In this document: positions 1,225-34,439 of the stretch, in pieces | Layout of the letters: the number at the start of each line of letters is the position of its first letter | Numbering within the stretch: the stretch's first letter is position 1 | NCBI GenBank assembly: GCA_029246505.1 | Contig: JAQWNC010000010.1 | Span: 1 to 64,000, forward strand | Direction of reading: 5' to 3' | Length of the DNA: 64,000 bases | Source of the DNA: Arenicellaceae bacterium | GTDB lineage: Bacteria; Pseudomonadota; Gammaproteobacteria; Arenicellales; Arenicellaceae | The notes under the pieces: model-generated | Database searches by the model: none | The model's input: only the letters and a program-made list of their open reading frames with translations | Told to the model about the DNA's origin: nothing | Translations under genes and position numbers: made by a program

Positions 1225-2835
1225 CTAGACACGACCTGGAATTTGTGGGATCGCACCCAATAGATCTCGTGTATATGGCATCTGTGCAGAAGTAAAAATT
1301 GTTTCTGTATCACCCTCCTCTACCAACTCCCCTAATTGCATTACTAGTGTCCGATCACACAAATATCGCACCACAGACAGATCGTGCGATATAAAGAGCA
1401 TGGTTAGATTTCTATCTTTAACGAGTTCTATTAATAAATCGAGAATTTGCGACTGTATCGTCACATCTAGTGCCGAGACAGGTTCATCGGCAACAATAAA
1501 TTCTGGCTTACAGGCAATCGATCTGCCAATAGCAATTCGTTGTCGTTGGCCTCCAGAAAATTCATGAGGATATTTTCGAATGTACCGGCGCGCCAAGCCC
1601 ACATCATCCATTAGCTGTAGAACTTTTAGGCCAATATCTTTACGGTTTGCTACCTCGTGATACAACATCGGTTCGGCTAAAGCATCATAAACGGTCATAC
1701 GCGGGTTCAACGAAGCGTAGGGATCCTGAAAAATCATTTGTAAATGACGGCGGAGCGGTTTCATCTGTACTCGAAGCAATTCCACCAAATTTTGACCTTG
1801 GTAGATAACTTCGCCCGAGGTAACCGGAACCAACTTAAGAAGGGAACGACCAATGGTAGATTTACCCGAACCTGATTCTCCGACCAAGCCAAGAATTTCG
1901 CCATGCTGAATATCGAACGAAACTCCGTTTACCGCCTTAACGTACTCGCCCTCAACACTATTTCGATCTTTAAACCAGGTATGTAAATCATGAACCTTAA
2001 TAATTTCGCTGCTATGGCTCCCCTCGGTTTGGATCATGATATTGGGCTTGCTACCGCTCGGAATACTGTCAATTAATCGTCGCGTATATTCTTCTTTAGG
2101 TGTCGTGAACAACCGCTCGGTTGTTCCGGTTTCGACTACCTGCCCTTCTTTCATCACAAGTACCCTATCGGCAATACTGGCAACCACACCCAAATCGTGG
2201 CTAATAAAAATCACACCAATATCGCGTTTCTTCTGCAGTTCAGCAATTAATCCCAGAATCTGCGCCTGAATAGTTACGTCCAGAGCCGTAGTTGGTTCAT
2301 CGGCAATGAGTAACTTCGGCTCGTTGATTAACGCCATAGCTATCATCACCCGCTGGCGCATACCACCCGAAAATTCGTGCGGATAACTATCAAATCGATC
2401 AGCTGCTTTACGAATCCCAACTTCATCGAGTAGTTCTTTGACGCGAGTTCGCGCTTCTGAGCGACTGTACTGGCGGTGATATATTAATGGCTCAATAAGT
2501 TGTTCGCCTACGGTCAGGAACGGATTCAAACTAGTCATTGGATCTTGGAAAATCATCGCAATATCGTCGCCGCGGATATCTCGGAGCGCTAACTCACCAC
2601 AAGCCAGTAAATCATTGCCTTCAAACATGGCACTACCACACTCTATTTTACCCGGTGGCTGCGGAACCAGGCCCAACAAACTATAGCAACATACAGATTT
2701 ACCCGACCCTGACTCACCCACGATACCTAGAATTTCACCCCTGTCGACGCTAAAACTGACGTCATCAACAGCGGTTATCACTCCATCACGAGTGTAAAAC
2801 CGGGTAGTCAGATTATTTACTTCTAATAAAGCCAT
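1225..2835 (-). CDS. Fused oligopeptide ABC transporter ATPase (OppD-OppF type)
   Basis: This 536-residue protein carries two complete ABC ATPase domains and supplies the energy for the adjacent peptide importer from the cytoplasmic side. Domain 1 has Walker A GESGSGKS at 40-47, signature SGGMRQR at 156-162 and Walker B LLIADEP at 175-181. Domain 2 has Walker [10 protein letters not shown] at 319-327, signature SGGQRQR at 427-433 and FIVADEP at 446-452. Each is followed by the oligopeptide/dipeptide C-terminal extension. In E. coli oppD and oppF are separate genes. A fused layout is known in YejF and GsiA. The linker at about 255-280 is continuous, so this is a real fusion and not a frameshift artefact. 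It is last in the operon, 15 bases after oppC. Confidence 0.93.
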
Positions 2836-2850
2836 CTATTATTTTACGGC

Positions 2851-3744
2851 CTAGTCTTTTGACGCTTTGGGGTCGAGAGCATCGCGCAAACCATCGCCCA
2901 AAAAGTTAAGCGAGAACAACGTTATCGACAATGCCAAACCGGGAAATATGAGCATCCACGGATAATCCTCCATGGTTTCCGCCCCATAAGAGATGAGTAG
3001 GCCCCATGATGACTGCGGTGGCTGAATCCCCAAGCCCAAGAAGCTTAAAAAAGCTTCAAGCAACATCACCTGCGGAATAGTTAGCGTAGCGTAGACAATA
3101 ACCGGACCCAACGTGTTTGGGATAACGTGGCGTCGTAAAATAGTTGGTGTGGATAACCCCATCGACAAGGCAGCCTCAATATATTCCTGCCTGCGTATAC
3201 CCAATACTTGCCCACGTACTATTCTAGCCATGGTTAACCACTCGACCGCTCCTATGGCCATAAACAACAACAGCATGCTCCGCCCAAAGACTACCATTAG
3301 TAAAATGATAAAGATGATAAATGGTAAGGCATAAAGAATATCAACGATCCGCATCATTACTATATCGATTCGCCCACCTAGATACCCCGAAATAGTGCCC
3401 CAGAGCACACCGATGAACAGTGCCACTGAAGTGGCTATAAAACCAACCGTTAATGAAACCCTTCCCCCATACAAAACACGAGTTAGCAGATCACGTCCAA
3501 AAACATCGGTGCCAAACCAGTGCGCTATGGATGGCGGTATTGCGCCTAAATTAAGGTTCTGTTCTTCGTAGCCATAAGGTGAAATCCAAGGTGTGAGCAC
3601 ACAAAGTGTAATTAACGCCAGCAATACATACAGACTGGCTATCGCCATCTTGTTCTTTTTTAATCGAATCCAAGCATCTGCCCAAAGAGAGGTACCTTTC
3701 TCAAACTGTTTGACTTGAGAGCTTTCGTTAGTGGCCCTACTCAC
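2851..3744 (-). CDS. oppC: Oligopeptide ABC transporter permease OppC
   Basis: Inner-membrane permease subunit of the peptide importer. It matches E. coli OppC along its length: SLWADAWIRLKKNKMA before the first membrane span, then FGTDVFGRDLLTRVLYGGR, the EAA loop (EAALSMGLSTPTILRRHVIP) that contacts the ATPase, and the typical end FLGDGLRDALDPK. An ATG exists at 3789 but would overlap oppB by 46 bases. I prefer GTG at 3744: it shares one base with the oppB stop (TAGTG), has CAGGGAA about 8 bases upstream, and gives 297 residues, close to the 302 of E. coli OppC. The arrangement implies translational coupling with oppB. Confidence 0.92.
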   Translation of the reverse strand: MSRATNESSQVKQFEKGTSLWADAWIRLKKNKMAIASLYVLLALITLCVLTPWISPYGYEEQNLNLGAIPPSIAHWFGTDVFGRDLLTRVLYGGRVSLTVGFIATSVALFIGVLWGTISGYLGGRIDIVMMRIVDILYALPFIIFIILLMVVFGRSMLLLFMAIGAVEWLTMARIVRGQVLGIRRQEYIEAALSMGLSTPTILRRHVIPNTLGPVIVYATLTIPQVMLLEAFLSFLGLGIQPPQSSWGLLISYGAETMEDYPWMLIFPGLALSITLFSLNFLGDGLRDALDPKASKD

Positions 3745-4679
3745 TAACGTTTCCCTGAGACTTGTTGTCGCAAGCGCGGATTCATCCACATGGCCAGCAT
3801 ATCAGACAGCAGATTAAACATTACGATCAATACTGACAGAAAGATCGTCGTACCTAAAATCATTGTATAGTCGCGATTGAACGCTGCTTGAACATAAAAC
3901 CGCCCCAGACCCGGAATTTGGAAGATGGTCTCAACTACGAACGAACCCGCCAACAACCCGGCAAAGGCAGGGCCCAAAAATGTGACAACTGGAATCAAAC
4001 CACCCCGCATAGCGTGTTTGATAACTACTACACGTTCAGGCAGGCCTTTTGCGCGAGCGGTTCTAATATAGTCTTGCGACATTATTTCCAACATTCCTCC
4101 GCGAGATAATCGCGCCACATAAGCAGCGTAGGCGGCTCCCAAAGTAATCGACGGCAAGATTTTATCGCCGGGAAGGTCGCCCCAGCCTGATATCGGTAAC
4201 CATTCTAGATGAATCCCGAATAACAACACCAACAACGGACCCAGCATAAATGTAGGCATACAAATACCAATCATCGCCAGCGACATAGGAATATAGTCTT
4301 GCGCCGTATTTGGTTTAAGCGCGGCAATAACTCCAGCGATCACTCCGACCGCTAAAGCGACTAATAGCGCGTAAAAACCTAACTCTGCGGTAATAGGCAA
4401 ACCACTTGCGATAAGATCTTCTACCTGCCAACCGGGATATTTAAATGAAGGCCCCATATCCCCTCGAAATAAACCAGCAATATAAGATACGTACTGTTCC
4501 CACATCGATTGATCAAGATTATATTTGGCCTCCAAAGCTCGCTTTACCGAAGGTATGACTGGCTTCTCAGCATCAAATGGCCCACCTGGAGCTTTTCGAA
4601 TCAAGAAAAATGTCGCTGTAATTACAACAAAAATAACCGGTATTGCTTGAAGCAACCGAATCCATATAAATCGCCACAT
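3744..4679 (-). CDS. oppB: Oligopeptide ABC transporter permease OppB
   Basis: Inner-membrane permease partner of OppC, 311 residues against 306 in E. coli. It starts with a short cytoplasmic segment and a membrane span (LLQAIPVIFVVITATFFLIR), then RKAPGGPFDAEK, GDMGPSFKYPG, and the EAA motif region RTARAKGLPERVVVIKHA before the last spans. All of this is diagnostic of the OppB/DppB family. The ATG directly follows the oppA stop (TAAATG), so the two are translated from one message. OppB and OppC form the pore through which OppA-bound peptides enter the cytoplasm. Confidence 0.93.
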   Translation of the reverse strand: MWRFIWIRLLQAIPVIFVVITATFFLIRKAPGGPFDAEKPVIPSVKRALEAKYNLDQSMWEQYVSYIAGLFRGDMGPSFKYPGWQVEDLIASGLPITAELGFYALLVALAVGVIAGVIAALKPNTAQDYIPMSLAMIGICMPTFMLGPLLVLLFGIHLEWLPISGWGDLPGDKILPSITLGAAYAAYVARLSRGGMLEIMSQDYIRTARAKGLPERVVVIKHAMRGGLIPVVTFLGPAFAGLLAGSFVVETIFQIPGLGRFYVQAAFNRDYTMILGTTIFLSVLIVMFNLLSDMLAMWMNPRLRQQVSGKR

Positions 4680-16050: not shown

Positions 16051-16932
16051 CTAGTTAAACAAACTCTTATAACCCGCATATTCACTTGGATCGACCACGA
16101 CAACCCGAGAATTCACTCCTTTACGATTTCCGTTAAGTAAATCGACAGTCATGGAATCGGCAGTAAACCTCAGGTCTGACTTATTATCCAGACAGGTAGT
16201 GACAATAACGTTGTGAAGCACAACGTTATTTTGGCCTATAAATTCTAGTGATTCGGCACGACCATAAGCATTGATCGCGCGATCTTCTCCCACATGAACT
16301 GGGGAGTTGGCGTCTCGATTTGCAAATAGAAATTCAGCAGGGCCAGATTTTACCGCTTCCCCCTCAAGGCCGTACTGCATACCTTCGGCATTAATAAAAT
16401 CGCCATTAGTAGTAATCAGCCTGACATCACCATCTGCTCGCGCGGTCTGTGAAGCGATGTCATAAAACAACTTGCTTGTTTGTATAACATTTCCTCCGGT
16501 GGAACTCAGCTGGACCATCCCACGAGCTTCTACTATTTCACTCACTTTGTCGTATACAAGTTCATCTGCGGTCACTCGATTACCATTTTGTGAAAGGCGC
16601 GTAAAACCTGTTAGGTAAACAATATTTCGATCCGGAAAATCAATTGCGTCAGCGTCAACTTGAACAATCGAGGAACTACCAAACTCATCATCCAGTTCTA
16701 CACTATTTATTTCGGCTTCGCTTAATTGTTCAATTTTTATATTAAGCTTGGATGCATTTAACATCCCGCATTGTAATTCGGGAAATATCCAATTTTCTTC
16801 AATGTTAACTTGATTAACATTTACCGCCGCTATCGTGCTTTTCTGGGCGGTTACCCCACCAGAAAAAATGACCAACAGTAATGTTGTGGAGGCAACACGT
16901 AAATTTATAAACTTTTCAAACCGATTCATCAA
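16051..16932 (-). CDS. Stand-alone LptD N-terminal (OstA-like) domain protein
   Basis: A 293-residue exported protein with a signal peptide (VASTTLLLVIFSGGVTA, cut near residue 29). The rest resembles the periplasmic beta-jellyroll of LptD and LptA: VQVDADAIDFPDRNIVYLTG, VTADELVYDKVSEIVEARG, FINAEGMQYGLEGEAVKSG. It then continues to the LptD-specific Cys region (VIVTTCLDN, Cys247, followed by FTADSMTVDL). LptD normally continues into a 500-600 residue outer-membrane barrel. Here a stop follows YKSLFN and mltA lies beyond, so no barrel is encoded. LptA proper lacks the Cys segment, so a truncated LptD paralogue is the better reading. A role in LPS transport is inference. Confidence 0.65.
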   Translation of the reverse strand: MMNRFEKFINLRVASTTLLLVIFSGGVTAQKSTIAAVNVNQVNIEENWIFPELQCGMLNASKLNIKIEQLSEAEINSVELDDEFGSSSIVQVDADAIDFPDRNIVYLTGFTRLSQNGNRVTADELVYDKVSEIVEARGMVQLSSTGGNVIQTSKLFYDIASQTARADGDVRLITTNGDFINAEGMQYGLEGEAVKSGPAEFLFANRDANSPVHVGEDRAINAYGRAESLEFIGQNNVVLHNVIVTTCLDNKSDLRFTADSMTVDLLNGNRKGVNSRVVVVDPSEYAGYKSLFN

Positions 16933-27550: not shown

Positions 27551-30070
27551 CTAATTCGGCAACATTTTTCGGCTGTCCATAAGTTGGATAAGCGCCGGGA
27601 AAAAAGTTAACGAGGCAACAAGGCAGCAAAACAACCCGATACATGCTACCAATCCCAGAGATACTAGCCCCTTATTACCAGCAGAAAGCATTCCCGCAAA
27701 ACCAAACATTGTTGTCATGGTGCTCAGCATTGCTGCTATACCTGTGGTTCGAATAGCTTTCGAAATTCCGTTACGCCCTTCTTCATCGTAGCGATGGTAA
27801 ATATGAATCGCATTGTCTACGCCAATACCTAGAACGGTAGGCAATACCACCATATTAAATATATTAAGCTTAATATCCATAAACCCCATTGCCCCAAACA
27901 TTACGATCATACCGACAATTATCGGGGATAAGGCAAGTACAGCTTTAGACAATTGTCGGTAAACTAGCACCAGCATAATAAATAAAGTTACAAGCACTGC
28001 ACCTATAGACGTAACTGCTTCAGACTTCATCAAATTCAACATATCAACAAAGATCATTGCCTCGGTTGCCGGATAAAAGGTTTTTCCATTCGCGCTGATT
28101 TCACGAATATCGTCAACAAATTCTTGTGCATCAGCGAGCTTGGCAACACTCTTAGTATTGTAAATGTACACAAGATAGCCACCAGAGTCAGATACGCCGG
28201 TATAGACTAGTTTAAGTGCTTCGGGAAGTTCTTCCGGGGTCAACTCACCAATAGCAGTATAGGTCAAAAATTCCTGCAAGCTCTCAATTTTCTTTTGATC
28301 TTCTTCGTTAAAGTCTTCAAGTAAGCGAACCGATTCTTCGATTTGCTCCTCTATCAATACGATTTCAGCTAACCGAGCTTCTTGCTCTGCTTTATCCGGC
28401 ACCAAATCATAGATTGATTTAACGGCTTCGATACTTGAAACATCCACGCTCTGCTGCCGAATACTTTCCACTGCTTCGAGCACTGCAGCCACATCTTCCA
28501 GTGATTCTATAAACACTACTGCACGATCTGTTCGCAGCGGAAATACTTTATTGATATCGTCCTTTACTGGCTGTAGCTGAGGCAGATTTGCCCGTAGTTT
28601 ACTAAAATCATCTTCAAAACGTACTTGCGAGATTCCTACACTAGAAATCAAGCACATAATTATTGTCCCAATCACCCACACAAAAGGTTTAGACATTGGT
28701 TTGTTGGCAACCCTGTTTGTTACAAGACCTTCTGCCGCATTCTGATTTAGATCGCCTTTAGGGTTTTTAGGCTTGTATAACTTAACCTTCTCCGCCAACA
28801 ACATTAGTGACGGAAAAACCAAATACATAGAAATTAACGATAATAAAACACCGGTACCAGCGATAAAGCCAAATTCATAAAACGCTTTAAAGTTCGACAC
28901 CATCAAGGCATAGAATGCGATAACAGTGGTGATCGCGGCCATTACCGAAGCACGACCGGTTTTATCACAAACCATTAACAGTGCCTGACTTGGACTACCA
29001 CCACTACGGCGGATTTCTTCATATCTGAACAAGTTGTGAATACCAAAATCGATCCCCAGCCCAAATAAAATAATCACCAGAAAAATGGTGATCAAATTTA
29101 GACTACCCAGTACTACTTGAACGATTCCGAAGGTGCATAAAAATGCGACCACCAACGGTACGCCGATATACACCAGTGCAAATACGCGCCTATAAAACAA
29201 CAGCATTGCTATAAAGATCGCACCTATTGACCAAAATGCGCTACTTTTCAAATCATTGATGACGGCATCAAATTCCTCAACACGGTTTCGTATTCGACCG
29301 CCGATCTTAACCGTCATTTCTGAATGATAAGAGGGCAAATCAAACGACGCTACTTTATCCTCTACTTCATCAAGCAATCGTCGACTATGTCCCATTCCTG
29401 TAGTGGAACCACTGGGCAAAATATTTAGTATTGCAAGTTCACCAGTCTCATCGGTAAATATTTTTCGGGCGGCATTCGGGTCATCAGGGTCCGACGTATC
29501 GGCCCCATACTTTTCCTGGATATCGGTAAAGTCTATTGAAGGTGGTATACCTCTGCCCGCACCACGAATTCTTATTCGGACATTGGTATCATCAATTTTA
29601 AAATCAAGGTTTTTCTTCTCATATTCAATACGATTACCAAACCGGGATCGTACTTCTCGTAGGTCTTCAACATCAACATAAAGCAATTGGTGCTGCTGAA
29701 ATATTTCTATGTCTTCAGCATACTCGGCGCTACTGACCCAATCCCATTGCAGAACGGACTCACGAAGATCTTCTAGAAACTGAATATTATTATCCGGATC
29801 AGGTGAATTAACCACCACCATAATCGAACTATAGCCACCGGTTTTCTCGACCACCTTTTCAAGGTTTTCAACACTCGCAATGCCATCCGGCATTAACGAA
29901 GTTATATCTGTGTCCAGCCGCATGTTCCTAGCTCGATCAAAGCCTACGTATGCCAGAGCAAAGGCTAGTAATAGAATGATCAGATAACCGCGCTGGATAC
30001 AATTCACTAGTGCACGAACAAACACAGGAGCCTGTGCCAATTCGCTATTCATATGACCGCTTTCATTCAT
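27551..30070 (-). CDS. MMPL/RND-superfamily exporter
   Basis: An 839-residue inner-membrane exporter with the duplicated RND layout. A first span lies at about 30-46, a periplasmic loop with MRLDTDITSLMPDG follows, and a membrane block at about 275-425 contains GLGIDFGIHNLFRYEEIRRSGG. A second large loop has an acidic coiled-coil-like part (about 550-620). The last membrane block contains GIGVDNAIHIYHRYDEEGR. Both blocks keep the Asp of the proton relay in the 'G-hydrophobic-D' motif. Relatives (COG1033 type, including HpnN) export lipids or hydrophobic molecules. It is last in the operon with the SPT-like gene and 6 bases after the lipocalin-like gene, which suggests a lipid substrate. ATG 30052 is an alternative start. 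Confidence 0.85.
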   Translation of the reverse strand: MNESGHMNSELAQAPVFVRALVNCIQRGYLIILLLAFALAYVGFDRARNMRLDTDITSLMPDGIASVENLEKVVEKTGGYSSIMVVVNSPDPDNNIQFLEDLRESVLQWDWVSSAEYAEDIEIFQQHQLLYVDVEDLREVRSRFGNRIEYEKKNLDFKIDDTNVRIRIRGAGRGIPPSIDFTDIQEKYGADTSDPDDPNAARKIFTDETGELAILNILPSGSTTGMGHSRRLLDEVEDKVASFDLPSYHSEMTVKIGGRIRNRVEEFDAVINDLKSSAFWSIGAIFIAMLLFYRRVFALVYIGVPLVVAFLCTFGIVQVVLGSLNLITIFLVIILFGLGIDFGIHNLFRYEEIRRSGGSPSQALLMVCDKTGRASVMAAITTVIAFYALMVSNFKAFYEFGFIAGTGVLLSLISMYLVFPSLMLLAEKVKLYKPKNPKGDLNQNAAEGLVTNRVANKPMSKPFVWVIGTIIMCLISSVGISQVRFEDDFSKLRANLPQLQPVKDDINKVFPLRTDRAVVFIESLEDVAAVLEAVESIRQQSVDVSSIEAVKSIYDLVPDKAEQEARLAEIVLIEEQIEESVRLLEDFNEEDQKKIESLQEFLTYTAIGELTPEELPEALKLVYTGVSDSGGYLVYIYNTKSVAKLADAQEFVDDIREISANGKTFYPATEAMIFVDMLNLMKSEAVTSIGAVLVTLFIMLVLVYRQLSKAVLALSPIIVGMIVMFGAMGFMDIKLNIFNMVVLPTVLGIGVDNAIHIYHRYDEEGRNGISKAIRTTGIAAMLSTMTTMFGFAGMLSAGNKGLVSLGLVACIGLFCCLVASLTFFPALIQLMDSRKMLPN

Positions 30071-30076
30071 ATCACT

Positions 30077-31318
30077 TTATTTAAGCGTCATAAGGTCGGC
30101 TAAACCTTGACCTATTAAATGCACACTAGTTCCATTCGCGGTATACGTTAAATCGTACGATAATCGAAATCGCGCACTAATAGGTGTTTTAAACATGCGC
30201 ACGAAAAATCGCTCAAATGGCTTCAATTCATCGACAACATCAAATTTTTGAACCTGTTTATCTAAGCTAATTGTGCCATCTAGGTTGCCGGTGCCAGCAG
30301 CATTAAGTGCTATTACCGAACAACAATCGGCTCGACTATCTTCCAATAGTGAACTCTCGGTTTCAAAAGATAGATCATCTATTACCGAACCTTTAGCGTC
30401 TAAAAGACGAACATTTGCCTTGGTCCTGCCATTCTTTAACTGCCGCATATCTATAATTGGACTGAGTTCATTGTTCGAGGAACTGCCCGATGCAAAAGCG
30501 CGCAGCCAAGCTCTGGATGCCTCACCCATAGCAGAGCTGGTAATATGCCTTAAGCCATGACCAACCCCGTGGCCCAGTGTTTGGTACGCCTGCACAATCC
30601 CGCTATCTTCATCCTTTATCCGGTATTGACCCGACACCATCATTCTCGGTGCAAAGATATTGACGTATTGATAACCTGCCTTTGCTCCAGACCAAACGAC
30701 ACCTAAATTCAATGGCTCGGTAATCGATTCAGCCACTAAATTAATATCACCGGACGGGTGCGAAAATCGAAAATAAAATGTATCACCGTCTTTCCAAAAA
30801 TGGTGCTGTGCAATTTGATAATCAAACTCATCTTCATGTTTAAACCAGTCAGAACGTCCGCGTCCATTCTTTAGCGTTACCTCCCGACCACTTGGTTCAG
30901 TAAGTTTAACCAGCACCAACATTCGATGATTACCTGAACCAAAGTTGCTGACGACTATTTGCGCGCTGATAATTGTTCCATCATCAAAATCGAACACAAA
31001 ATCCCAGCCTTCCGAATATGTGCCGCCGTTTAAATACGCAGGCGAAAACAAAGGTGCTACGTTATCGCTCCGCTCCCACGTGACGTCTTTATCTATAGTT
31101 TCGGGGTGGCTTACATCTGCATAAACCGCCTCTGCAGATCGAAATTGATCCAAATCCAAAATAGATTCTTCTTGCGAAATTGCCGACGCGACAGAGATTT
31201 CCGCTTCCGTCGCCGCGAAAACCGCCGCAGTAAAGAATACTGCTAAAGCTGTAGTTAAAGCTATAGTGGGAGCAGTCAGCAAGCTAAATGGCAGGCTGAA
31301 ATATTTTACGTGGTTCAT
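30077..31318 (-). CDS. Exported lipocalin-like protein (AttH/CrtC/Svf1-like)
   Basis: I start at ATG 31318, giving 413 residues, because the longest frame begins with GTG and reads into a signal peptide only from here (MNHVKYFSLPFSLLTAPTIA, cut near AVFAATEA). The mature part is beta-rich. The pattern GWDFVFDFDDGTIISAQIVVSN, HRMLVLVKL, IAQHHFWKDGDTFYFRF and FAPRMMVSGQYRI recalls the double-lipocalin AttH/CrtC/yeast Svf1 fold, whose members bind lipids or carotenoids. Similarity is by pattern only, so the fold is a hypothesis. It lies between the SPT-like gene (86 bases) and the MMPL exporter (6 bases) and would suit a periplasmic lipid carrier. Confidence 0.55.
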   Translation of the reverse strand: MNHVKYFSLPFSLLTAPTIALTTALAVFFTAAVFAATEAEISVASAISQEESILDLDQFRSAEAVYADVSHPETIDKDVTWERSDNVAPLFSPAYLNGGTYSEGWDFVFDFDDGTIISAQIVVSNFGSGNHRMLVLVKLTEPSGREVTLKNGRGRSDWFKHEDEFDYQIAQHHFWKDGDTFYFRFSHPSGDINLVAESITEPLNLGVVWSGAKAGYQYVNIFAPRMMVSGQYRIKDEDSGIVQAYQTLGHGVGHGLRHITSSAMGEASRAWLRAFASGSSSNNELSPIIDMRQLKNGRTKANVRLLDAKGSVIDDLSFETESSLLEDSRADCCSVIALNAAGTGNLDGTISLDKQVQKFDVVDELKPFERFFVRMFKTPISARFRLSYDLTYTANGTSVHLIGQGLADLMTLK

Positions 31319-31403
31319 AAACATACCGTGTTCAATGCACACAAATGCTGGTTGAGATGTTCTTTCAGCAGTGCTTGCAAGACGTACGTGAACTCACGCA
31401 TGC

Positions 31404-32681
31404 TCAACTATTGTTTATAAGACCGAGTTCCTTTCCAGCACTTGCAAATATATCAAGCGCTCTGTCAAGGTGCTCCGGCCTATGACTTGCCATCACACTG
31501 GTTCTAATTAACGCTGAATCCTTCGCGACACCCGGGTGAATAACCGGAGTTACGAACAAACCACCATCAAACAGCTTACGCCAGAACTGTAAAGCCTGCA
31601 TGTCGTCCCCTACAAATACAGGTACTACGGTAGACTCTGTATTGAGTGTATCAAAACCCAAATCTGTTAATCCGTTTCTAAGATGATCAGCATTAGCCCA
31701 AAGCCTTTCACGACGTTCAGGTTCGTTTTCAATAATATCAAGCGCGGCCAAGGCAGAAGCCGTGTTTGCGGCTGGCAAACTAGCTGAGAAAATCAGAGGC
31801 CGGGCATTATGTTTCAAGTAGTCCATGGTGTCGGCATCACCGGCTAAACAACCTCCGATTGTAGCCATAGATTTACTGTAGGTGCCCATTATTATGTCCA
31901 CCTTATCTTCTACCCCAAAGTGCTGTGCCGTACCGGCTCCTTGCTTACCTAAAACTCCAATACCATGCGCATCATCAACCATTACTGCGGAACCAAACTC
32001 ATCTGCTAACTGGGTGATTTCTGGTAATCGTGCTATATCTCCTTCCATGCTAAAAACACCGTCTACAACGATCAGCATAGACCGGCCCTGGTGTTCTGTT
32101 AACACCCGACGCAGGTCTTCCATATCGTTATGATCATACTTGCGTGTCTGTCCATACGACAAACGACAACCATCGTAGATACAAGCATGGTTGGAGCGAT
32201 CAATAATTACTACATCACCTTTACCAACCAAGCCAGCAATACCGCCTAAATTAGCTTGAAACCCTGTTGGGAATACAATTGCAGCCTGCTTGGAAAAGAA
32301 TTTCGCCAGTCTGGCTTCGAGTTCTTCATGTAACGCCAAGGTACCATTTAAAAAACGAGAACCCGCACATCCGGTTCCAAATTCGCGTGTCGCCTTAATC
32401 GCCGCTTCAACAACTTTGGGATGACTAGTCAAGCCAAGATAATTATTGGAGCTAAGCATAACCATATCGCGGCCATCGCAGCGGACTTCAGGTTCTTGCG
32501 CAGACTCCAGAGCTTTAAAATACGGATATATATCTGCCGCACGCATATCTTCTACGCGCTGATAATCACGTACTTTTTTAAAAATTGGGGGGCGTACCCG
32601 CGCAGGAATAGCTTCGGAGGCGCTTACAGTCGGTTCAACCAAGGGTTTGGTTAAACCGCTCGCCAAATTATTATTTTTCAT
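31404..32681 (-). CDS. Serine-palmitoyltransferase-like alpha-oxoamine synthase
   Basis: A PLP enzyme of the alpha-oxoamine synthase family (fold type I), 425 residues from ATG 32681. It joins an acyl thioester and an amino acid with loss of CO2. The PLP Lys is in GTYSKSMATIGG (Lys270). The stacking His is in RSNHACIYDGC (His165) and the pyridine-N Asp in MVDDAHG. The glycine-rich acyl-CoA region is GTGCAGSRFLNGT. SHAxIYDGC and the GT(Y/F)SKS loop are closer to bacterial serine palmitoyltransferase than to BioF or Kbl, but substrates are not proven. The start overlaps the reductase stop by ATGA, so both are co-translated. No acyl carrier gene is adjacent. Confidence 0.8.
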   Translation of the reverse strand: MKNNNLASGLTKPLVEPTVSASEAIPARVRPPIFKKVRDYQRVEDMRAADIYPYFKALESAQEPEVRCDGRDMVMLSSNNYLGLTSHPKVVEAAIKATREFGTGCAGSRFLNGTLALHEELEARLAKFFSKQAAIVFPTGFQANLGGIAGLVGKGDVVIIDRSNHACIYDGCRLSYGQTRKYDHNDMEDLRRVLTEHQGRSMLIVVDGVFSMEGDIARLPEITQLADEFGSAVMVDDAHGIGVLGKQGAGTAQHFGVEDKVDIIMGTYSKSMATIGGCLAGDADTMDYLKHNARPLIFSASLPAANTASALAALDIIENEPERRERLWANADHLRNGLTDLGFDTLNTESTVVPVFVGDDMQALQFWRKLFDGGLFVTPVIHPGVAKDSALIRTSVMASHRPEHLDRALDIFASAGKELGLINNS

Positions 32682-33724
32682 AACCAATTATTTCGCCGGT
32701 ACCAAGATACCAGCTCATTGATGGCGGTCGGCAGCGGATGCAATGTTACATGCCGCAACTCATTCGTCGCCTTACTCACATCAAGCGACCAATCTGGTTG
32801 TAAGAATTCGTCAAACCGCGTGCTATTTAAAAACACTGGCCAATTACTAAATCGGCTGATCAACTGGCCCATCCTACCTGCCAACTTTAATATTTTCTGA
32901 CCGAATCGTATGCGTCTAGGTTCAACCTGCATTGCCAGCGCCGCTAGGCGTTCGAATTCACTCCAGCAATACGGCTCTTGATCAGCAACGAAGAAAGTAC
33001 TGCCATTATGTACTTCTACAGTCGCCGAGCGGGCCATCAATCTCACCAAATCATTTACATGACAAAGACTTATAATTCGATCTACGGACCCTAATTGTAT
33101 CAGGTATTTATGCTTCAACAGTTTAAATATAGGTAAAAACTCCTTATCACCAGGGCCGTAAACCGCGCTAGGCCGCAACACGATATAAGGCAAGTGGGCC
33201 GATTTACTGGAGAGAAACTCCTCAGCTTCGAGCTTCGAGCGGCCATACGCAGTTATCGGGTTAGACACATCGGTTTCACGCCGTGGTTGACCAGTACTAG
33301 GGCCTGCTGCAGCCTGGCTAGATACAAACACAAAACGCTGTAATGGCGGTTTTACAGCTGATACTGCATCAACCAAGTTGCGTGTACCCATAACATTATG
33401 AAGATAGTAATCTGCCTCACTCGATGCACTCGTGACTCCAGCAACATGAAATACGTAATTCGCGCCTGCAACTCCGACCCGCAAAACATCAAGATCGTGC
33501 AAATCTCCAACGACCTCGGTCACACCCACAAGTTCACTGAACTCTGAGGGCAGTACGCGTCTTACCAAGCATCGAACTTCGAAGCCCTGGGCAACTAGCT
33601 CAGGCACAAGGTGTTTACCTACAAAACCACTTGCACCGGTGACAAATGCTAGTTTTCCGACACTCTCCCCCGATGCTGAACCTGAATCTGTGTTTAACTG
33701 AGATTCAGCGTTTACTTTAGACAT
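32678..33724 (-). CDS. NAD-dependent epimerase/dehydratase-like reductase (CerR-like)
   Basis: An extended short-chain dehydrogenase, 348 residues from ATG 33724 (sharing one base with the hflD stop, TGATG). It has the Rossmann motif TGASGFVG, the catalytic Ser region FVFVSSQAAAGPS and the YGRSK dyad (Tyr160, Lys164). The fold is that of NAD(P)-sugar and 3-beta-hydroxysteroid-type enzymes. In Caulobacter an enzyme annotated in the same way (CerR) acts as ceramide reductase beside spt. Here the partner directly downstream is an SPT-like gene, which makes a keto-sphingoid or ceramide reductase role plausible. A sugar or steroid substrate cannot be excluded from sequence. Confidence 0.8.
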   Translation of the reverse strand: MSKVNAESQLNTDSGSASGESVGKLAFVTGASGFVGKHLVPELVAQGFEVRCLVRRVLPSEFSELVGVTEVVGDLHDLDVLRVGVAGANYVFHVAGVTSASSEADYYLHNVMGTRNLVDAVSAVKPPLQRFVFVSSQAAAGPSTGQPRRETDVSNPITAYGRSKLEAEEFLSSKSAHLPYIVLRPSAVYGPGDKEFLPIFKLLKHKYLIQLGSVDRIISLCHVNDLVRLMARSATVEVHNGSTFFVADQEPYCWSEFERLAALAMQVEPRRIRFGQKILKLAGRMGQLISRFSNWPVFLNSTRFDEFLQPDWSLDVSKATNELRHVTLHPLPTAINELVSWYRRNNWL

Positions 33725-34359
33725 CAATTGGTAGCCCCAGTTGTTAACAAATCGCTTGCAGCGGATTGATAGGCTTTACGTCTCAACAGCATCTCAAAAC
33801 GACCACCGCCTAACTGCTCCCAAAGCACCACGCAGCGAATCCCTGCCAGTAACATTGTCCTAATCTTATTACTAACCTCTTCCTGCTCCAGAAACCGCTG
33901 CTCTCCCTGCACGTAGACCCGCGGTTTTAAGGGGCTAACAGCCTCTAAATATAGCTCCGCGCAACTGGTAAACAACTCTTTCTCATCGAGTGTTTTAATC
34001 CAATCCAGCCGATCAATAACTTTCTGCTGGGCGACTGAATTCGCAAACAAAGATTTCTTTAACGATATCAAGGTATTCATGTATCGATAAACATCCATCG
34101 CCGTAGCATCAGTCGCTTGCCCAATACCACCAGCCATCAGGCCTAAACCTTTGGATAATCCTAATCGATCACCAAACACAGAAACAACATCTGGAGCATC
34201 AATCATCTTGATCGAACGCACCAGACACTGCAACGAAGCATCGTCAATTTGCCCACTCGACGCCAAAGACTGAACGGCGGAACAAGCCTCAAGTGTCCCC
34301 GCTAAAGAGAGCACACGCTGATAAAGGCTGTCTGAGTTAACTTGGTCATTACTAATCAT
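33724..34359 (-). CDS. hflD: HflD family protein
   Basis: Peripheral inner-membrane protein; in E. coli HflD modulates lambda CII stability and lysogeny. From ATG 34359 (preceded by GGTGAAG) it has 211 residues, like E. coli HflD (213). The longer frame to 34422 adds an unconserved start. Family features are LAGTLEACSAVQSLASSGQID, YLEAVSPLKPRVYVQG and the C-terminal IRTMLLAGIRCVVLWEQLGGGR. In many gammaproteobacteria hflD follows mnmA. Here it follows an S9 peptidase gene and couples to lipid-type genes downstream. Confidence 0.93.
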   Translation of the reverse strand: MISNDQVNSDSLYQRVLSLAGTLEACSAVQSLASSGQIDDASLQCLVRSIKMIDAPDVVSVFGDRLGLSKGLGLMAGGIGQATDATAMDVYRYMNTLISLKKSLFANSVAQQKVIDRLDWIKTLDEKELFTSCAELYLEAVSPLKPRVYVQGEQRFLEQEEVSNKIRTMLLAGIRCVVLWEQLGGGRFEMLLRRKAYQSAASDLLTTGATN

Positions 34360-34439
34360 TTCTTCACCGCTAATATTATTACGCGCTTTAAATAGGCAGC
34401 GCTGTACTGAAATCTCTAGCACATATTGAGGGGACTGAC

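Follow-up and report, generated by a model that had tools for sequence, protein, structure and literature searches.

A conserved reductase-synthase-lipocalin-MMPL operon of an Arenicellaceae bacterium, predicted to serve sphingolipid synthesis and trafficking

Introduction

Does a single operon of a gammaproteobacterium encode both the making of a sphingolipid and its passage through the envelope? The question is raised by a run of minus-strand genes in a 64,000-nucleotide stretch of DNA from an Arenicellaceae bacterium (assembly GCA_029246505.1, contig JAQWNC010000010.1, positions 1 to 64,000), hereafter the window. The run encodes a reductase of the extended short-chain dehydrogenase/reductase (SDR) type, a serine palmitoyltransferase (SPT)-like alpha-oxoamine synthase, an exported lipocalin-like protein and an MMPL/RND-family protein. 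The route of bacterial sphingolipids to the outer membrane is not known; LptC2/F2/G2 have been suggested to provide it in Caulobacter (PMC11324152), and according to work on this organism no flippase or transporter is known for these lipids (PMC11087976).

The initial annotation, made from the window sequence, read these genes together with hflD as a five-gene layout in which the synthase and the reductase make a ceramide-like lipid that the other two proteins export. Here we examine this proposal by comparative analysis of the window's own genome (G000, searched contig piece by piece), a genome of the same genus (G001), two families (f2 and f122), a genus g19 (G039, G049 and G057) and more distant genomes.

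Results

A four-gene module conserved in two families

The five open reading frames lie where they were annotated (Table 1), with a TGATG overlap coupling the HflD and SDR genes, an ATGA overlap coupling the SDR and synthase genes and a 6-base gap between the lipocalin and MMPL genes; the gap between synthase and lipocalin genes is of at least 61 bases. Conservation in relatives, proposed as a check of the operon, was observed for four of the genes. The order SDR-synthase-lipocalin-MMPL is kept in 8 of 8 f2 genomes, where the synthase is 62-64% identical to that of the window, and in two genomes of the distant family f122, with a CDP-alcohol phosphotransferase gene inserted before the MMPL gene. 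Held in ten further genomes from two families, the arrangement is not due to chance. In G001 the block is the same as in the window, hflD being again upstream, and the contig stops within the lipocalin gene.

The five-gene layout, on the other hand, had to be abandoned. hflD adjoins the module in the window's genus and at none of the f2 or f122 modules; synteny thus rules it out as a functional part and leaves it a mere neighbour. The true unit is of four genes, reductase, SPT, lipocalin and MMPL. Neither a four-gene module of this kind, with carrier and exporter, nor the pattern of co-occurrence with inositol genes presented below was found described in the literature searched.

A predicted serine palmitoyltransferase

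The best profile for the synthase is that of SPT (NF047600, 521 bits), and its best relative in the PDB is the Sphingobacterium SPT with 433 bits, compared to at most 308 for Kbl-type enzymes, 225 for BioF and 137 for CqsA. In a maximum-likelihood tree of 61 proteins, whose rows do not include the Sphingobacterium SPT or CqsA and HemA sequences, the window enzyme falls within a 43-row SPT group (support 100/99) together with Sphingomonas and Bacteroides SPTs that pass the curated cut-offs. It stands outside the Kbl group (support 100/94) and outside the BioF group. Its motifs GSRFLNGT and GTYSKS match the SPT pattern, and the only other member of the superfamily found in G000 is BioF, located within a biotin operon. 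The synthase thus belongs with strong support to the SPT clade and is a predicted SPT, in agreement with the initial annotation, whose proposed tree separates it from Kbl and BioF; CqsA was compared by score only. The accompanying view that sphingolipids are uncommon in gammaproteobacteria needs tempering: spt-like genes are less rare than was assumed, a Black Sea survey having found them spread over 38 phyla (PMC11334938), so that the presence of an SPT alone is not new.

Two further sets of SPT-clade synthases were observed. Genomes of f2 hold a second one, about 59% identical to that of the window (Table 1), divergent from a gene for an AraC-type regulator and with no SDR, lipocalin or MMPL gene adjoining. 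In Clostridia (loci L011, L012, L015, L016, L018 and L019) SPT-clade synthases divergently adjoin an SDR, which in L012 scores highest with 3-ketodihydrosphingosine reductase (NF049977, 288 bits). On these grounds, Firmicutes not yet examined may make sphingoid bases.

Reductase and ceramide synthase genes

An SDR orthologue 40-43% identical to that of the window lies directly upstream of the synthase gene in the ten other module genomes. Outside them, the window SDR is 32-37% identical to SPT-adjacent SDRs of Nitrospirota, Myxococcota, Rubrobacter and Aureispira, and 26-30% to those of alphaproteobacterial type; in Nitrospirota and Myxococcota, which hold the nearest outside relatives, the SDR gene also directly adjoins that of the synthase. 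The pairing of a CerR-like reductase with the SPT, proposed initially, is consistent with both the ATGA coupling and this relationship to SPT-linked SDRs of other phyla.

The same loci pointed to the ceramide synthase (bCerS). A GNAT protein of about 370 residues is encoded directly downstream of the synthase at Nitrospirota loci L005 and L006 and at Zixibacteria locus L013, and the gene order is SPT-GNAT-SDR in Rubrobacter and SDR-SPT-GNAT in Aureispira. The Roseomonas member of this GNAT family is encoded after two LptF/LptG permease genes and ahead of two nucleotidyltransferase genes, which is where Caulobacter has CC_1154, a proposed N-acyltransferase needed for ceramide formation (PMC11324152). 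E. coli YghO is also a member of these bCerS-family GNATs. A single copy was found in G000 (42% identity, E 1.7e-88), on contig C24; matches of at least 50% to this copy occur in 6 of the 10 module genomes of the order, while the 51 other genomes gave one match, of 24% identity. The initial annotation was thus right that the window lacks bCerS, but the gene exists elsewhere in the genome, unlinked. Since G000 carries it on another contig, the predicted gene set for ceramide synthesis, spt, cerR-type SDR and bCerS, looks complete.

A search of G000 for acyl carrier proteins gave three carriers, none linked to the module, and we accordingly claim no dedicated carrier. One stand-alone carrier gene, on contig C17, overlaps that of an AMP-dependent ligase, amid nucleotide-sugar and polysaccharide genes, and could form with it an unlinked acyl-activation pair. 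On a Pseudomonas veronii plasmid, genes for an SPT-clade synthase, an 86-aa protein, an SDR, YghO and YghR/S/T are clustered, an arrangement suggesting that the ygh genes of enterobacteria belong to a sphingolipid locus.

Candidate carrier and exporter

The lipocalin-like protein has no match in Pfam or NCBIfam. Its AlphaFold2 model shows two barrels (pLDDT 71, pTM 0.70) and aligns with Z scores of 19-22 over 273-288 residues to 2ich, 7a0q, 7e5t and 9g2i, unrelated folds remaining below Z 7; these matches comprise AttH, kievitone hydratase, Fsa2/CghA/Phm7 and 25-phosphosteroid lyase. The N-terminus is hydrophobic and signal-peptide-like. While sequence profiles are silent, the model and this segment agree with the exported lipocalin-like protein first annotated, and we regard it as a predicted secreted double lipocalin and propose it as a periplasmic lipid carrier. 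Within the order it is encoded in exactly the 10 module genomes and in 0 of the 44 others searched. Among 369 genomes of the class and 398 of the phylum it was found, besides G000, in two f122 genomes, in G709 (a complete single-contig genome of another class) and as one marginal match (E 8.6e-4).

The hydrophobic segments of the MMPL protein group into two clusters that surround periplasmic loops. It scores 280 bits with HpnN (cut-off 752) and 198 with BstA (cut-off 1400), which places it in the same superfamily and not as a member of either; it is related to hopanoid and sterol transporters, with a predicted exporter role. Orthologues 46-54% identical occur in ten module genomes. The lipocalin gene always has a gene for a lipid-type MMPL protein as its neighbour in f1, f2 and f122 modules; in G709 one lies nearby. 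A literature search joining MMPL with bacterial sphingolipids gave nothing relevant.

Elsewhere in the window, a lone gene encodes a secreted 293-aa protein with weak similarity to LptC and to LptA/LptD-N, possibly an extra lipopolysaccharide- or lipid-bridge protein (Table 1).

Inositol genes co-occur with the lipocalin

Outside the window, on contig C15 of G000, are genes for a myo-inositol-phosphate synthase (MIPS; 402 bits to 1gr0) and for a nucleotidyltransferase whose best relative in the PDB, 2xme, is a CTP:inositol-1-phosphate cytidylyltransferase. A third, convergent gene encodes a CDP-alcohol phosphotransferase of two domains, whose model aligns to IPCT-DIPPS (4mnd) with Z 23.6 over 330 residues; as read from the sequence, its motif D-x2-D-G-x2-A-R-x8-G-x3-D-x3-D is intact and its N-domain has no nucleotidyltransferase signature. 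MIPS is present in 13 of 13 genomes with the lipocalin and in 0 of 44 without it. Counted by genus within the order, the contrast is 4/4 to 0/19 (chance 1.1e-4, kinship inflating such figures). This co-occurrence, which links inositol activation to sphingolipid genes in proteobacteria, is new here.

The MIPS gene adjoins that of the cytidylyltransferase wherever the contig is long enough to show it, which excludes three contigs. G709 is the exception: there the two are 2.4 kb apart and the cytidylyltransferase gene is beside the MMPL gene. In the window's genus and in f2 and f122 (loci L193-L196 and L198 besides that of G000) the pair is found close to rpoA-rplQ, suggesting an old shared location and not a recent transfer. 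The f122 operon includes a gene for a homologue of the CDP-alcohol transferase, and six f2 genomes (L101-L104, L106 and L108) have one next to the module; the one neighbouring the G039 module is 42% identical to G000's own. In G709 the MMPL, cytidylyltransferase, transferase, MIPS and lipocalin genes lie within about 13 kb, far from an SPT cluster of alphaproteobacterial type. Because the association of MMPL, lipocalin and inositol genes survives this change of SPT type, a function in steps later than ceramide, namely head group and transport, is favoured.

Contig C23 of G000 holds overlapping genes for a PhyH dioxygenase, a fatty acid hydroxylase and another CDP-alcohol transferase, nearest to cholinephosphotransferases. 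The only solved relative found for the hydroxylase is the yeast ceramide hydroxylase SCS7 (E 7e-18). The three genes are perhaps a second sphingolipid-tailoring operon, and the SCS7-like hydroxylase would count as further support for sphingolipids in this organism.

Table 1. Positions of the module, its neighbour and other loci mentioned in the text
Feature	Position	Strand	Basis or remark
CerR-type reductase, extended SDR (epimerase/3beta-HSD)	window 32678..33727, ATG 33724	minus	PF01370/PF01073
SPT-clade alpha-oxoamine synthase	window 31404..32687, ATG 32681	minus	NF047600, tree, motifs
Secreted double-lipocalin (AttH/CrtC-type fold) protein, signal peptide	window 30077..31342, ATG 31324 or 31318	minus	predicted fold
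MMPL/RND-family protein, HpnN/BstA relative, proposed lipid exporter	window 27551..30070	minus	PF03176 3.5e-44
hflD (DUF489)	window 33724..34422, ATG 34359	minus	PF04356 and NF001246 profiles; upstream neighbour
MIPS, nucleotidyltransferase and convergent two-domain CDP-alcohol phosphotransferase	G000:C15:2244-5487		MIPS-cytidylyltransferase pair at 2244-4138
bCerS-family GNAT	G000:C24:70776-71930		
PhyH dioxygenase, fatty acid hydroxylase, CDP-alcohol transferase	G000:C23:74932-77062 (L124:8433-10563)		
Stand-alone carrier and AMP-dependent ligase	G000:C17:6172-7963 (L130)		
Secreted 293-aa protein	window 16051-16932	minus	
Second SPT-clade synthase of f2	L109:10149-11387, L110:1634-2872, L111:9505-10902		
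SPT-SDR-ygh cluster, P. veronii plasmid	LT599585.1, ~50-66 kb (L133)		

Discussion

We estimate at about two in three the probability that the block is an operon for sphingolipid synthesis and trafficking in the full form proposed, inositol head group and export included. It very probably makes ceramide-type lipids, the synthesis part being well supported by comparison, through orthology and linkage; the initial proposal of a ceramide-like product has gained from the SPT tree, the conserved linkage and the bCerS gene on C24. The SPT would join a long-chain acyl thioester to serine or some other small amino acid, yielding a 3-keto long-chain base, which bCerS would N-acylate and the CerR-type SDR would then reduce at the keto group to give ceramide. 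MIPS and the CTP:inositol-phosphate cytidylyltransferase would provide CDP-inositol, from which the DIPPS-like phosphotransferase of C15 would transfer inositol phosphate onto ceramide. The MMPL protein would extract the lipid from the inner membrane for the secreted double lipocalin to ferry across the periplasm towards the outer membrane. We infer the precise substrates, the identity of the product as an inositol-ceramide, and both the cargo of transport and its direction, the best reading being that an inositol-phosphate sphingolipid is moved outward by the MMPL protein and the lipocalin. Tentatively, and with some doubt, we further suggest that these two proteins form a dedicated inner-to-outer-membrane sphingolipid transport, alternative to LptC2/F2/G2, whose cargo would be inositol phosphoceramide. 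This lipid would be formed straight from CDP-inositol and ceramide, whereas the AUR1/BT_1522 route proceeds from phosphatidylinositol.

Several observations weigh against this proposal. The synthase, with 521 bits, stays below the curated cut-off of NF047600 (640); since the bCerS-linked enzymes of Nitrospirota and Rubrobacter also fail (578 and 444 bits), the curated SPT models are narrow. The bCerS gene of G000 is unlinked to the operon, the f122 copies are only 25-27% identical, and none was found in G039, G049 and G057 or in G060 despite a full module and MIPS; in these four genomes another N-acyltransferase may act, or the bins may be incomplete. The inositol genes of G000 are also unlinked to the operon, and their co-occurrence with the lipocalin is partly shared ancestry, the pair lying near rpoA-rplQ in several families. 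Finally, the AttH-type fold family includes enzymes.

Comparison with known systems places the proposal between several precedents. In the Caulobacter/Sphingomonas cluster (aasR, cerR, acpR, spt ... lptF2, lptG2, cerS; PMC11324152), as here, spt adjoins the gene of an extended-SDR reductase, a bCerS-family GNAT is in the genome and a CDP-alcohol phosphotransferase is associated. The window spt differs in having no adjoining dedicated acyl carrier or acyl-ACP (acyl carrier protein) synthetase and an unlinked bCerS; MMPL and double lipocalin replace LptC2/F2/G2, head-group genes are of inositol type, and the synthase is nearer to SPTs of Nitrospirota, Bacteroidota and Clostridia. Bacteroidetes inositol sphingolipid clusters, namely BT_1522-1526 and an alternate one with MIPS, NTP transferase, CDP-alcohol transferase and HAD (PMC9246714, PMC8791184), share with it the presence, in a sphingolipid producer, of MIPS, nucleotidyltransferase and CDP-alcohol transferase, and the alternate cluster is the nearest head-group precedent (PMC9246714). 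In contrast to them, no AUR1-like BT_1522 or HAD protein was seen beside these genes here, the spt operon of f122 and f2 contains or adjoins transferase genes, and direct transfer to ceramide is proposed. The IPCT-DIPPS/AF2299 of Archaeoglobus (4mnd, 4o6m) has likewise an NTP-transferase-like domain followed by a CDP-alcohol transferase with intact motif, whereas in G000 the active cytidylyltransferase is a separate gene, the N-domain of the C15 protein lacking the signature, and the proposed acceptor is a lipid.

For transport, BstABC associates an RND protein and a periplasmic lipid-binding partner with lipid biosynthesis genes (PMC10942540). As with BstABC and HpnN, the module has a lipid-type RND/MMPL gene beside the biosynthesis genes of the lipid, but its carrier is a double lipocalin, not of BstB/BstC type, and no outer-membrane partner was seen. 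A carrier of ceramide between membranes has been proposed in yeast, Svf1, which also has two lipocalin domains (PMC10583516). The likeness is architectural, taken from its description, and Svf1, unlike the window protein, is cytosolic and eukaryotic; the window protein has no Pfam match, and no solved Svf1 stood among its fold matches, which does not count against the likeness.

The alternative that survives best, though we hold it unlikely, concerns the inositol genes: they would serve another end, di-myo-inositol phosphate as a solute or phosphatidylinositol, the sphingolipid would have another head group or none, and the co-occurrence would reflect ancestry or habitat. That the transferase model is closest to IPCT-DIPPS, a maker of a solute precursor, and next to phosphatidylinositol-phosphate synthases fits this explanation, as do the conserved place of the MIPS pair and the other CDP-alcohol transferase that accompanies the SCS7-like hydroxylase. 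It accounts poorly for homologous transferases within the f122 operon and beside the f2 modules, for the grouping of inositol, MMPL and lipocalin genes in G709, and for the absence of MIPS from all 44 lipocalin-free genomes.

Ceramide might also be made as proposed and the lipocalin-fold protein be a lipid-modifying enzyme (hydratase, lyase or cyclase), the MMPL protein moving the modified lipid or other cargo. The nearest solved folds, kievitone hydratase, decalin-forming pericyclases and 25-phosphosteroid lyase, speak for it, and so do 21 invariant columns of the lipocalin alignment, with W, D, H, K and R residues among them. The protein is secreted, however, and while a cofactor-free enzyme could act there, a carrier is the simpler need; its gene also keeps a lipid-type MMPL neighbour. 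We consider an enzyme improbable. Slightly less probable again is that the synthase yields a different long-chain amino-ketone, a 1-deoxy-sphingolipid from alanine or a sulfonolipid from cysteate, for the same export pair. Alanine is indeed a substrate open to SPT-like enzymes, as other amino acids may be (PMC11334938), and cysteate acyltransferase 28eh is related, though with 283 bits against the 433 of SPT; the nearest solved and profile relatives are SPTs, and bCerS and the head-group genes fit a ceramide with the 1-hydroxyl that the phosphotransferase needs. A CqsA-like alpha-hydroxyketone signal, or another small diffusible product, with its exporter is very improbable: CqsA is in the same superfamily (though not a row of our tree) and MMPL proteins export many products, but the CqsA profile gives the synthase 225 bits (cut-off 428) against 521 for SPT, and the enzyme is conserved with bCerS and inositol genes in several genomes.

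Under the proposed sphingolipid reading, an operon in which SPT and reductase genes accompany those of a lipid-type RND protein and a secreted double lipocalin is a concrete, directly testable candidate for sphingolipid transport. In proteobacteria, strict co-occurrence further connects the activation of inositol with genes for sphingolipids, and on this ground inositol sphingolipids are predicted in the window's group.

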